DNA of 64,000 bases from Novosphingobium sp. Chol11 (GTDB lineage Bacteria > Pseudomonadota > Alphaproteobacteria > Sphingomonadales > Sphingomonadaceae). The notes below the pieces were generated by a model. It worked only from the letters and a program-made list of their open reading frames with translations, had not been told where the DNA came from and searched no databases. Every line of letters begins with the position of its first letter. Position 1 is the stretch's first letter. Of the stretch, positions 58,251 to 63,571 are shown in pieces. Made by a program: the position numbers and the translations under genes. The stretch spans positions 1,212,919 to 1,276,918 of the forward strand of contig NZ_OBMU01000001.1 in the NCBI RefSeq assembly GCF_900218065.1, written 5' to 3'.

Positions 58251-58313
58251 GCCGCGCATATCCGTGTGCGTTGCCTTAACAGGGTGCGCGCTCCCCTTTT
58301 GTCAGGAACTTGC

Positions 58314-61058
58314 ATGTTCGGCGCACTCGCCAAGTCCATCTTCGGATCGTCCAACGAACGTTACGTAAAGTCGCTGGGCAGGATCGTCGAACGCATCGCT
58401 TCTTTTGAACCTGCCATTTCGGCGATGAGCGATGAGGAACTGACCGCCCAGACCGCGCGCTTCCGTGAGCGCTTGGCGCAGGGCGAAACCCTTGACGACC
58501 TGCTGCCCGAAGCCTTCGCCACCGTGCGCGAAGCCGCCAAGCGGACGCTGGGCCAGCGTCATTACGATGTGCAGATGGTCGGCGGCATCGTCCTCCATCG
58601 CGGCGAAATCGCCGAAATGCGTACCGGTGAGGGCAAGACGCTGGTCGCGACGCTCGCCACCTATCTCAACGCGCTGGAGGGGAAGGGCGTCCATGTCGTC
58701 ACCGTGAACGACTATCTCGCCAGCCGCGACTGCGACTGGATGGGTCAGGTTTACCGCTTCCTTGGGCTCACCACCGGCGTGATCGTGCCGAACCTCAGCG
58801 AGGATCAGCGGCGAGAGGCTTACAACGCCGACATCACCTACGCGACGAACAACGAACTCGGCTTCGACTATCTGCGCGACAATATGAAATATGACCGCGC
58901 GTCGATGGTGCAGCGGCCCTTCAACTTCGCCATCGTCGACGAAGTGGACTCGATCCTCATCGACGAAGCGCGCACGCCGCTGATCATCTCCGGTCCGACC
59001 GACGACAAGTCGGAGCTTTACGTCTCGGTCGACGCCATCGTGAAGCAACTCGATGATGCCGATTATGAAAAGGATGAGAAGCAGCGCTCCGTCACCCTGA
59101 CCGAAGACGGGACGGAAAAGATCGAGCGGCTGCTGGAAGAGGCGGGCCTGCTCGAAGGCGCGAATCTCTACGATTTTGAGAACACCGCCGTCGTCCACCA
59201 CGTCAACCAGGCTCTGCGCGCGAACATGATGTTCCGCCGCGACATCGATTACATCGTGAAAGACGGCAAGGTCATCATCATCGATGAGTTCACTGGTCGC
59301 ATGATGGACGGCCGCCGTTGGTCCGATGGCCTGCACCAGGCGGTGGAAGCAAAGGAAGGCGTCCAGATCGAGCCGGAAAACCAGACGCTGGCCTCCATCA
59401 CCTTCCAGAATTATTTCCGCATGTACCCGAAGCTCGGCGGCATGACCGGTACGGCCGCGACCGAAGCGACCGAATTCTACGAAATCTACAAGATGAACGT
59501 CGTCACCATTCCGACCAATCGGCCGGTACAGCGTGTCGATGAAGAAGACAGCTTCTACAAGAATCTGGAAGACAAGTTCCGCGGCATCGCCAAGACGATC
59601 AAGATCCATGCCGAAAAGGGCCAGCCGGTCCTCGTCGGCACCGTGTCGATCGAAAAGTCGGAAATGCTATCCGAATTCCTTAACCAGGAAGGGGTGAAGC
59701 ACGCCGTCCTCAACGCCCGCTTCCATGAGAGCGAGGCCCATATCGTGGCGCAGGCGGGGCGGAAGGGCGCCGTCACCATCGCCACCAACATGGCTGGCCG
59801 CGGCACTGACATCAAATTGGGCGGCAACCTGGAATTCCGCGTCGAAGACGAACTGCGCGACATGCCCGAAGGCCCGGAACGCGATGCCGCGATCGCGCGG
59901 ATCGACGCGGAGATCGAAGCCGAAAAGCAGGAAGTGCTCGCCGCCGGTGGCCTCTTCGTACTCGGCACCGAACGGCACGAAAGCCGCCGCATCGACAATC
60001 AGCTGCGCGGCCGCTCGGGGCGTCAGGGCGATCCCGGCCTGTCTCGCTTCTACCTCAGCCTTGACGATGACCTGATGCGCATCTTCGGCCCTGACACGAT
60101 GTTCGCCAAGATGATCCGCTCGAACCTTGAGGATGGCGAAGCGCTGCCCCCGTCCAAATGGCTCAGCAAGGCGATCGAGACCGCGCAGAGGAAGGTCGAG
60201 GCGCGCAACTACGACATCCGCAAGCAGGTCGTCGAATATGACGACGTCATGAATGATCAGCGCAAGGTCATCTACGAACAGCGCAGCGACATCATGGACG
60301 CCGATACGGTGGACGATGTCGTCACCGACATGCGCCATGAAACCGTCAACGACCTTGTCGGTGCCTCCTGCCCGCCGGGCACTTATCCGGAACAGTGGGA
60401 CATTGAGCGGCTGAAGCTTCGCACTGCCGAGATCCTCGGACTGGAGCCGGACTTCGATGCCTGGTTGACTGAGGACGCTGTCGATCCGGAAATGATCGAG
60501 GAGCGCCTCACAGCGCTCGCCGATGAAGCCGTGGCCGAAAAAGTCGCGAGCATCGATCCTGAAAACTGGCACATGATCGAAAAATCGATCCTGCTGCAAA
60601 GCCTGGACCATCATTGGAAGGAGCATCTGTCGACCCTGGATGCTCTCCGCCAGGTCGTTCACTTGCGCGCCTATGCACAGAAGACGCCGATCAACGAATA
60701 TAAGCAGGAAGCCTTCGCCCTGTTCGAACGCATGCTCGGGAACATCCGCGAGGATGTCACCGGCTCCATCGCGCGCGTTCAGTTCCGCATGGACGGCGGC
60801 GATATCGCGCCCTTGCCCGATTTCGACCTGCCGGTGCTCCCGGACTTCATCACCACGCATATCGACCCCTTCTCAGGCGAAGATAATAGCGGGGACATCG
60901 ACGCCGGGCAGCTTGGCGGCATCACCACGACGCTGCCGCGCCCGCCGGTCGGCAACGCTGCGCCGGGTGAGTTTGACAACCTGAACATCAGCCGCAATGC
61001 GCCATGCCCCTGCGGCTCGGGCCAGAAGTACAAGCACTGCCACGGCGCGCTCGCCTAA
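58314..61058 (+). CDS. secA: Protein translocase ATPase SecA
   Basis: Motor of the Sec export pathway. The 914-residue protein has Walker [37 protein letters not shown], the second helicase domain ([27 protein letters not shown]) and a C-terminal zinc motif [14 protein letters not shown] used for SecB and phospholipid contact. ATG 58314 has AGGAA upstream; a GTG 16 codons before is rejected. Preceded by a recognisable promoter. Confidence 0.97.
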
Positions 61059-61068
61059 GCAATTGACC

Positions 61069-61094
61069 GTCATGCCAGCGAACGCTGGCATCTC
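61069..61094. repeat. REP-like palindrome, GCCAGCG...CGCTGGC family
   Basis: GTC, then core ATGCCAGCG-AA-CGCTGGCAT (61072-61091), then CTC, ten bases after the secA stop. Inverted relative to the copy at 3747-3770. Confidence 0.75.
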
Positions 61095-61181
61095 GGGCGG
61101 CCATGTGCAGCGCTGAGAGATCGCGCCTGCACCTCATCGAACGATGAGGGAGCATGCCAATAGTTCGAAAAGACGCGGCGG

Positions 61182-61607
61182 TCAGTCCCGCCGCTCGTCC
61201 CGACCATCCCCATGCAGCTTGGCCCAAAGATCCCCCGTCCCGGCCTCCTGCGCCTTTGTCACATATTGCGCAGCCACCAGCCAGCCCTTGATCGGACGCA
61301 GCGGCAGCACGGTTGTCAATATCAGGACCGGTATCCCCACCGCGATATGCACCCACAGGGGCGGGCGCGCCAGGATTTCCAGCATGACGATGAAGATCAC
61401 GCCGGGGACGCAGGCGAACAACTGCACGAACACGGCAGGCCCGTCTGCCGGATCGGCAAAGGAATAATTCAGCCCGCACACCTCGCAATGATCGCGGATC
61501 GTCAGGAACCCGCGGAATATATGCCCTTCGCCGCATCGCGGGCACCGGCCCAGCGCCCCCGTTTCGATCGGCGATCGCTTCGGCCAGTTGTTTGACGGTT
61601 GAACCAT
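61182..61607 (-). CDS. DUF983 family membrane protein
   Basis: Protein of 141 residues with a zinc-ribbon-like pair, RCPRCGEGHIF and DHCEVCGLNYSF, followed by two hydrophobic segments. This matches DUF983, often found near cytochrome oxidase genes, though not here. Function unknown. ATG 61605-61607 with AGGA nearby; an upstream frame extension of 31 residues is less likely. Confidence 0.85.
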   Translation of the reverse strand: MVQPSNNWPKRSPIETGALGRCPRCGEGHIFRGFLTIRDHCEVCGLNYSFADPADGPAVFVQLFACVPGVIFIVMLEILARPPLWVHIAVGIPVLILTTVLPLRPIKGWLVAAQYVTKAQEAGTGDLWAKLHGDGRDERRD

Positions 61608-61689
61608 GTCCTGTTTTCCCTTGCCCAATCTGGCCTTCCTTCGCAGCGTCCATGTGATGGCAGGGCTATGGAAATCAACTAGCCTTTTT

Positions 61690-61834
61690 GTCCCACCCAT
61701 GGATTAAGCGGGTGGATAAGCAGGACGCCGGGTTGACGTTACGGCACGGCGGGCGAAGCGCCTTCCATGGATTGCGGCCGTCAACAATCTCTGTTACACG
61801 CGCGGCGATTTGGATGCCCGACAGCATACAAGTC
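61690..61834 (+). ncRNA. Candidate structured RNA ending in an orphan terminator
   Basis: No convincing gene lies here, yet a strong plus-strand terminator follows at 61835. The interval holds a CCACCC/GGGTGG stem (61693-61698 and 61710-61715) and a perfect GTTGACG/CGTCAAC pair (61732-61738 and 61779-61785) enclosing a GGCG-AAG-CGCC hairpin. The transcript would start near the DUF983 promoter region on the opposite strand. The exact start is unknown. The only plus ORF through it would have to read through the terminator. Confidence 0.4.
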
Positions 61835-61869
61835 GCGCCCCCGGCATTCCCTTGCCCGGGGGCGCTTTT
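61835..61869 (+). terminator. Strong orphan intrinsic terminator
   Basis: Ten-base stem GCGCCCCCGG/CCGGGGGCGC (61835-61844, 61856-61865), loop of 11, then TTTT. Its orientation does not serve either flanking minus-strand gene. Confidence 0.82.
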
Positions 61870-61904
61870 ATTTCTTCACTGACCGCTTCGTCTCTGCGCG
61901 CGAC

Positions 61905-62141
61905 TTAATGCGCTGGCTTTTCCGCAGCCGGGTCGCCAGGCATGTCGAAATTTTCCATGGCATCGTGCAGCACCTGATCGGGACAGGAAGCCGCGAGTGC
62001 TCTCACCTTGTACCGCAGCGCCAATTCCCGATGCGCCGCGATCTCTTCGGCCGGGGCGTGCCGGGCCAAGGCGCTGTTTACCTTGTCCGCTTCTTCCCGC
62101 GCTCGCCGGAAAAGATAGGGTGCATCCGTTTGCCCAGACAT
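61905..62141 (-). CDS. Small conserved-type protein, unknown function
   Basis: Protein of 78 residues from ATG 62139-62141, which has a perfect GGAGG ribosome binding site. It is mostly helical and charged (LFRRAREEADKVNSALARHAPAEEIAAHRELALRYKVRALAA). No membrane segment, signal or known motif. The earlier in-frame start (62186) lacks a ribosome binding site. Confidence 0.7.
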   Translation of the reverse strand: MSGQTDAPYLFRRAREEADKVNSALARHAPAEEIAAHRELALRYKVRALAASCPDQVLHDAMENFDMPGDPAAEKPAH

Positions 62142-62239
62142 CGCAACCTCCAGATCGTGAAGAGGCATGATAGCATGCCAGTTCACGATACTCTCTAACG
62201 CGGGTTAAGGCGAGGCGTAGCTGCGATCATCTGCAAAAC

Positions 62240-62327
62240 TGGCGGAAGGGGTGGGATTCGAACCCACGGATGCTTGCGCATCGGCGGTTTTCAAGACCGC
62301 TGCAATCGACCACTCTGCCACCCTTCC
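62240..62327 (-). tRNA. tRNA-Ser (anticodon TGA)
   Basis: Acceptor stem GGAAGGG/CCCTTCC, anticodon arm GCGGT-CTTGAAA-ACCGC with anticodon TGA, the long variable arm typical of tRNA-Ser (CGATGC...GCATC), T arm GTGGG-TTCGAAT-CCCAC, discriminator G and encoded CCA. Confidence 0.97.
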
Positions 62328-62524
62328 GTTCCGGGCATTCCGATGCCTGCTTTGCGTCGCGCGGCCGTCCATGCCTGGAACCCGCTTCCTAGCGAAGCTT
62401 TGCGCCATGCCAAGCGTAAAATGACCAAATCCGCTTTCAGTGCGTTGTTGTCACGATCGCAGCGACAAGGGGGATTTCGCCTTCCGCCCTCGCTGTGCCA
62501 CAAAGGGATGAGGGAGATTCTCTA

Positions 62525-63571
62525 ATGCGTTCAACCATTCACTCGCTTCTGCTGCGTCTTGCCGTGGTCACGGCGGGCAGTCTGATGGCGGGTCCTGGTA
62601 TGACGCAGGACATGGCTCAGGACGCGGGCTTTCGCAGCTATCTCGAAACGCTGCGGCCAAAGGCGCGCGCCATGGGCATCCGTTCCTCGACGCTGGATTC
62701 CGTGTTTCCGTCGCTCACCCCCAATCCGCGCGTCATTCAACTGGACCAGAACCAGCCGGGGGGCGGGGCCTATTCGCCCATTCCCAATTTCGAACCTTAC
62801 AGACGCCAGCATGTGGACGCCGCGCGGATCAGCCGTGGCCGCACGGCCTATCAGGCGAACCGCGCCCGCCTTGCCCGGATCGAAGCGGAGACTGGCGTCC
62901 CTGAGGAAATCATGGTCGCCATCTATGGGCATGAAACCAACTATGGCTCCTATACGGGTGACTTCGACCTGATCCGCTCACTCGCGACCTTGTCCTATGA
63001 AGGACGCCGCCGCAGCCTGTTCGAACCGGAGTTGCTGGCGACGCTCAAGATGCTCGACAATGGCGTGCCGCGCAGCCGCCTGGTCGGCAGCTGGGCAGGG
63101 GCGACGGGTTATCCGCAATTCCTGCCCAGCGTCTATCTGCGCCTGGGCAAGGATGGCGACGGCGATGGCCGTGTCGACATCTGGAACAGCGAAGCGGACG
63201 CGCTCGCTTCGATCGCCAATTATTTCGTGAACGCCGGTTGGCGGCGCGGGCAGCCATGGGGCGTTGCCGTGTCCGTACCCGCGAATTTCAACCGCGCCAG
63301 CGTTACGGCCCGACTTTCCCCGGCCCGCTGCCCCCGCGTGTTCAACCGCCACAGCCGTTGGCTCAGCATGGCCGAATGGCGCAGCCGGGGCATCGTTCCA
63401 ACGGGCAGCAGCCGGCTTGCCGACACGACGTTAGCCACGCTGCTGGAGCCCGATGGCCCCGGCAAGACTGCCTATCTGCTGACGAGCAATTACCGCGCCA
63501 TCCTCGATTATAATTGCTCCAACTTCTACGCGCTCTCGGTCGGGCTCCTCGCCGACGCGGTCAGGCAATAG
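62525..63571 (+). CDS. Lytic murein transglycosylase (MltB family)
   Basis: Periplasmic enzyme that cleaves peptidoglycan glycan strands with 1,6-anhydroMurNAc formation. The 348-residue protein has an N-terminal signal region (LLLRLAVVTAGSLMAGP). The catalytic glutamate is in IYGHETNYGSYTG, and SWAGATGYPQFLPSVYLRLGKDGDGDGRVDIW follows, with a calcium-like DGDGDG loop. ATG 62525 with GGGAG nine bases upstream. There is no lipobox, so it is probably soluble. Confidence 0.9.
   Translation: MRSTIHSLLLRLAVVTAGSLMAGPGMTQDMAQDAGFRSYLETLRPKARAMGIRSSTLDSVFPSLTPNPRVIQLDQNQPGGGAYSPIPNFEPYRRQHVDAARISRGRTAYQANRARLARIEAETGVPEEIMVAIYGHETNYGSYTGDFDLIRSLATLSYEGRRRSLFEPELLATLKMLDNGVPRSRLVGSWAGATGYPQFLPSVYLRLGKDGDGDGRVDIWNSEADALASIANYFVNAGWRRGQPWGVAVSVPANFNRASVTARLSPARCPRVFNRHSRWLSMAEWRSRGIVPTGSSRLADTTLATLLEPDGPGKTAYLLTSNYRAILDYNCSNFYALSVGLLADAVRQ

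Follow-up and report, generated by a model that had tools for sequence, protein, structure and literature searches.

A putative small RNA with two fixed hairpin loops in most Sphingobium genomes examined

Which transcript is ended by a strong plus-strand terminator whose two neighbouring genes both lie on the minus strand? The question is raised by a locus downstream of secA in Novosphingobium sp. Chol11, within a stretch of 64,000 nucleotides that was analysed as a whole and is called the window here. A sequence-only reading had proposed that a non-coding RNA of 100–180 bases ends at this terminator, with nested inverted repeats in the bases preceding it. The terminator and its neighbourhood comprise the following features:

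58266–61058, plus strand: secA, a syntenic marker of the position, from Pfam and locus comparison
61182–61700, minus strand: DUF983 gene, the divergent neighbour (PF06170, 4.2e-29); longest ORF, start uncertain
61835–61865, plus strand: hairpin 2, the terminator stem-loop, from covariation and terminator analysis
61848–61855, plus strand: TCCCTTGC within the loop of hairpin 2
61866–61873, plus strand: terminator T-run, from sequence and terminator analysis
61905–62186, minus strand: ORF of 93 aa, the convergent neighbour; no Pfam match, its relatives adjoining the RNA elsewhere

The plus-strand terminator was borne out: a stem of 10 pairs (61835–61844 / 61856–61865; loop CATTCCCTTGC) is followed by the tail TTTTATTT and constitutes an intrinsic terminator. 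No plus-strand gene directly precedes it, as had also been noticed. The DUF983 gene, which sits between the end of secA and the RNA, is transcribed away from the terminator, and the 93-aa ORF runs towards it. Just 3′ of secA, at 61072–61091, there is an inverted repeat ATGCCAGCGAACGCTGGCAT without a T-run, which is perhaps the 3′ end of secA or a repeat element.

A small RNA gene with a length of about 65 bases appears to end at the terminator; in it, hairpin 1, whose loop is CCGACA, directly precedes the terminator hairpin and its UCCCUUGC loop:

61806–61873, plus strand: small RNA, A-type member of the family, from the model match, the conservation limits and the count of G-U against A-C; inferred start 61806 or 61807, end within the T-run
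61806–61835, plus strand: hairpin 1, stem CGATTTG / CAAGTCG and inner stem TGC / GCA, from fold, alignments and covariation
61818–61823, plus strand: hexaloop CCGACA of hairpin 1

Conservation, paired changes, a promoter-like sequence that is itself conserved and a conserved position give strong support to a non-coding RNA ending at this terminator, and the RNA gene itself is very probably real. The proposed length of 100–180 bases did not hold: 29 of 33 match rows in the DNA search begin at query 127 or later, which corresponds to 61806 or later, and a covariance model matches at 61806–61868 with 57.4 bits. Folding also spoke against a long RNA with nested inverted repeats, since the segment 61690–61875 (186 nt) gave z = -1.60, with 18 of 200 shuffles folding equally well, compared with z = -3.26 and 0 of 200 shuffles for the last 76 nt (61798–61873). 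The conserved hairpin at 61806–61835 was absent from the earlier reading.

Judged by sequence, this RNA is one of a family carried by most Sphingobium genomes examined, usually in two copies. The DNA search matched 26 of 61 genomes, including the window's own, all of them in its genus; a second copy in the window's genome matched query 123–179 with 81% identity. Two covariance models were built, R1 from 10 copies of the B-type described below and R2 from 87 matches in 86 loci. R1 (at E ≤ 0.001) and R2 each matched 80 of the 94 genus genomes, and 14 of the 94 gave no match to the models. R2 matches numbered one in 19 positive genomes, two in 48, three in 12 and four in 1, so that 61 of the 80 hold two or more, some of the extra matches being weak; the window's genome has two. 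One weak extra match inside the training set of R2, L284, is without the hexaloop. Among the 80 loci listed by a pattern scan of genome contigs, at least that many being present, 6 carried the family at E 1.3e-7 or better, five from Sphingobium and one from a Sphingomonadales bacterium.

Among 199 genomes of the taxonomic family, R1 matched 11 at E ≤ 0.001, of which two belong to the genus and nine lie outside it. One of these nine is a clear true member (G211, locus L035), and the other eight (L036–L043) have a terminator-like hairpin and no CCGACA loop in the stretch examined; L039 reads CACGACAGC. R2 matched 8 of 298 family genomes, namely four in the genus, G211 and three without the loop (L036, L291 and L292), and in 296 genomes of the order it gave 7 matches at E ≤ 1e-4, all in the genus and none outside; these out-of-genus searches scored 17–26 candidates per genome, so absence there is not proven. 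Terminator-like hairpins with CCCTT loops were seen in other sphingomonad genera (L036–L038, L040–L043, L291 and L292), L036, L037, L038 and L042 appearing to follow the same gene end (IGRTYL...), and sphingomonads may share a habit of terminator loops. In L047 (G255), near 1500, a small TTTGCCCGACAGCAAA hairpin stands directly after another terminator-like hairpin. In the window's genome (G000), the pattern for terminators with a CCCTTG loop gave 9 versus 2, a weak result in which two of the 9 are this RNA family, and the 10-mer GCCCGACAGC by itself is frequent, with 73 sites versus 30 for the reversed pattern.

Copies of the RNA recur at certain places: between secA and DUF983, as in the window, at uvrA, between cstA and xdhC, and on some plasmids. 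DUF983 was matched in 70 of 94 genomes, and 30 DUF983 loci were compared; secA stands beside DUF983 in 14 of the 30, all 14 of which carry the RNA (A-type), and the other 16 have neither secA nor the RNA within the stretch covered. The B-type adjoins uvrA and/or a 120-aa ORF without a Pfam match, and the C-type lies between cstA (PF02554) and xdhC (PF02625, PF13478) in 34 loci. A few copies with C-like stems are located elsewhere or on plasmids (L045, L225–L227, L269 and L281). A hand tally among the loci compared, part of which were retrieved with one search pattern, placed the A-type in 17 genomes and the cstA–xdhC copy in 33 others, with zero overlap.

The plasmid copies are carried by pSHV1 of S. 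herbicidovorans, one plasmid of Sphingobium sp. EP60837 and two of Sphingobium sp. TKS; in the PLSDB typing, three of these four are conjugative and pTK3 is mobilizable. The copy on pTK3 (L297) is near genes for a DNA polymerase Y family protein, a damage-inducible protein and an SOS-associated peptidase. One B-type copy searched against a phage collection at E 0.01 gave no match. At B-type loci (e.g. L026, L015 and L198), the sequence GTT(C/A)-N7-GTT(C/A) is found 62–69 bases before the hexaloop, beside uvrA, in 29 rows that include some places twice; it is absent from the window's genome. This sequence resembles the alphaproteobacterial LexA box, and DNA damage is a possible signal for the B-type RNA. 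Another motif, TCCGTNACGGA, was found in 16 of 457 loci, preceding A-type RNAs and following B-type RNAs (sites include L008 1429, L241 1932, L015 1480 and L030 1465), with only a degenerate form in the window, and is a possible regulator site.

Upstream of the RNA in the window, two promoter-like elements were located:

61772–61777, plus strand: -35-like element TTGCGG
61795–61800, plus strand: -10-like element TACACG, 17 bases after the -35-like element

They follow the pattern TTGNNN-N16-18-TA. When only distinct upstream regions were counted and rows without CCGACA were skipped, this pattern stood at a fixed distance before the RNA in all 19 A-type and A-like plasmid regions (reversed control 0/19) and in 31 of 35 C-like ones (control 4/35). 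In the remaining regions, mostly B-type, it was found in 1 of 29, the same as in the control (1/29). The positions of TTGCGG and TACACG place the start of the RNA at 61806 or 61807. A strict consensus scan of 60500–63000 found no promoter-like site. At the other end, the 12 bases around the point where hairpin 2 ends include on average 7.8 T in A-type sequences, 6.1 in those of B-type and 4.5 in those of C-type, with sequences unclassed by the rules of the count skipped; the few T in the C-type suggest that its copies may not end there. A-type copies have both a promoter-like sequence and a T-run, C-type copies have a promoter-like sequence and few T, and B-type copies have a T-run and no promoter pattern that was found. 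The arms of the GTTGACG/CGTCAAC stem, which the sequence-only reading had offered for a conservation check, are present in the window (61733–61739 and 61779–61785), with the right arm inside the inferred promoter spacer and outside the RNA; the stem failed the check, as TTGACG and CGTCAA co-occur in 2 of 17 A-type sequences.

The structure was examined in a model-fitted alignment of 87 rows, 80 of them distinct, which leans to its model. In it, each of the 20 pairs has changed on both sides at least once without loss of pairing, 95.6% of the cells pair, and the covariation score is 0.478, compared with 0.191 (sd 0.008) for shuffled alignments and 0.057–0.103 with the partners slid. Alignment with MAFFT, under the structure that RNAalifold itself proposed, gave both-side changes at 3 of 20 pairs for 9 A-type and A-like plasmid sequences and at 8 of 15 pairs for 33 C-type and other sequences; all of these are in hairpin 2, so the both-side changes of hairpin 1 rest on the model-fitted alignment. 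The cells at the 20 pairs comprise 1362 Watson-Crick, 108 G-U and 6 A-C. Since G-U pairs are A-C mismatches on the opposite strand, these counts assign the structured RNA to the plus strand and rule out a minus-strand RNA. The loops are far more constant than the stems: 79 of the 80 distinct rows, all but L284, preserve CCGACA, which is unchanged in L270, L273 and L275 though the pairs closing it differ there, and the terminator loop keeps CCCTTG in 75 and TCCCTTGC in 69 of the 80. The family, its strand, its two hairpins with fixed loops, the promoter-like sequences of the A- and C-types and the recurring positions are established at the level of sequence comparison.

The likeliest reading, to which we assign a probability of about 0.55, is that these are sibling small RNAs that pair with mRNAs through their fixed loops. 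The RNA at 61806–61873 (plus strand) would be read from its own promoter, starting at hairpin 1 and stopping at its own terminator. The family would act in trans by base pairing with mRNAs near their starts, with the CCGACA loop as the pairing seed and the UCCCUUGC loop probably as a second one; Hfq would sit on the U-tail, and copies under different promoters would feed one regulatory output. Two traits of trans-encoded sibling sRNAs, several similar copies per genome and no conserved reading frame, are seen in this family. Transcription, Hfq, base pairing, the targets and the redundancy of the copies we infer.

Complements of hairpin 1 ahead of ATG were sought by pattern in 16 genomes; each genome yielded 36–106 sites versus 2–13 for the reversed control, and the matched strings look dominated by coding sequence. 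Nine seed words were compared in the start regions of 314 ortholog pairs, drawn from 800 kb each of G000 and G010 with crude gene starts. TGTCGG was conserved in 9 pairs and GCAAGGG in 5. Permuted words averaged 2.6 and 1.1, respectively, and came as high in 2 of 59 and 0 of 104 cases; one GCAAGGG site precedes a gene that is presumably mscL. The other seven words, including longer complements of the CCGACA loop, were not raised in these 314 pairs, permuted words reaching the observed count in from 30 of 150 to 14 of 19 cases. Because nine words were tried without correction for their number, the starts were crudely called and some matches look wrong, the conservation of TGTCGG and GCAAGGG is a hint only of pairing. 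In addition, loops of the TCCCTTG kind are found in terminators from further sphingomonad genera, and the second loop may therefore be a feature of terminators in general. The missing promoter pattern of the B-type, the few T of the C-type and the 14 genus genomes without a match likewise weigh against this reading.

CsrB-type RNAs titrate an RNA-binding protein, and the invariant CCGACA hexaloop could likewise be a protein recognition element, with the copies of the RNA as decoys. The hexaloop is fixed though its closing pairs differ, C-type copies keep both hairpins without a clear T-run, and the target searches gave no convincing mRNA partner, all of which would suit a decoy. We nevertheless consider it unlikely, as a single hexaloop in each RNA, at about two copies per genome, makes for a small sponge, no candidate protein is known, and pairing seeds are equally expected to have fixed loops. 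More doubtful still is the extended form in which CCGACA is the code of a putative Sphingobium RNA-binding regulator and the copies at secA, uvrA and cstA and on conjugative plasmids are competing decoys; if so, plasmids could tune the post-transcriptional network of the host by carrying the same hairpin.

The locus would need no functional RNA if converging genes were simply separated there by a conserved transcription terminator or boundary, as hairpin 2 with its T-run and the similar loops of terminators in other genera might suggest. This is improbable, because hairpin 1 is equally conserved and covaries, a promoter-like sequence lies just upstream, the A-type copy has no preceding plus-strand gene, and the hairpin persists in C-type copies, where a clear T-run is missing. 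The neighbours are particular to each type, as would be expected of a leader, antisense or promoter-interference RNA acting in cis on DUF983, uvrA, cstA or xdhC; however, the same RNA adjoins unrelated genes and is also found on plasmids, and the neighbours at the A position are on the opposite strand, which leaves little room for a cis element. A short coding gene is hardly credible and was rejected: ATG, GTG or TTG precedes CCC GAC AGC (Pro-Asp-Ser) in many copies, but no reading frame is conserved among them, as after these codons the frames diverge by insertions and deletions and end after from 7 to more than 30 codons, L002 and L031 read TAG there, and the stem changes are compensatory. 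Just as hard to credit is a mobile or repetitive DNA element forming hairpins by chance; the several positions and the plasmid copies would fit it, but there are just one to four matches per positive genome, the fixed positions are common to different species, and the G-U bias marks selection on RNA.

Sphingobium species degrade pollutants such as herbicides. The RNA is carried by most of the genus and has fixed loops, positions that recur and copies on plasmids, which makes it a good candidate for a central regulator. It is small and easily deleted, and its loops give sharp, testable predictions. A literature search, in full text for open-licence papers only, found no report of this RNA, and its titles and abstract beginnings contained none on a small RNA of Sphingobium.

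The Rfam search of the window gave no family at gathering score for this RNA. The lowest E-value among the Rfam matches in the stretch belonged to sX13 of Xanthomonadaceae (RF02232), which scored 19.5 bits (gathering score 50; E 0.072) and reads as a chance match. Identity with RF00519 (alphaR8 / SuhB / MmgR) was rejected, with no match at gathering score (41 bits) across the window and none up to E 10 in 61700–61890 or at the RNA in L002 and L003. The RF00519 copy L375 of the same genome, which reads TGCCTTTCAGGCATCCTCTCC, scores 55.6 bits. Ten RF00519 matches at E ≤ 0.01 were observed in this genome, exceeding the four siblings described in Caulobacter in the available excerpts.

LhrC has UCCC loops. 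According to partial descriptions, LhrC1-5 of Listeria and NgncR_162/163 of Neisseria are alike in having several similar RNAs per genome with fixed loops; they belong to other phyla or classes, and the likeness is one of description. Closer are the alphaR8 RNAs (SuhB of Sphingopyxis, MmgR, and SisA-D of Caulobacter; RF00519). In the accessible part of their descriptions, these alphaproteobacterial RNAs are short, combine a 5′ hairpin with a terminator and occur in several copies per genome at unrelated positions. SuhB is given there as 61 nt and Hfq-dependent (PMC6563040), and SisA-D as siblings with a shared 10-mer (PMC12559287). They differ from the Sphingobium RNA in that L375 has another loop and a conserved, unpaired C-rich stretch, TCCTCTCC in the copies read, between hairpin and terminator; this stretch is absent here, where hairpins 1 and 2 are adjacent. 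On sequence grounds, the RNA described here has a well-supported gene and belongs to an uncatalogued family. That family is new and its kind is known: SuhB and SisA-D, as far as these partial accounts go, are nearest to it in kind and not in family.
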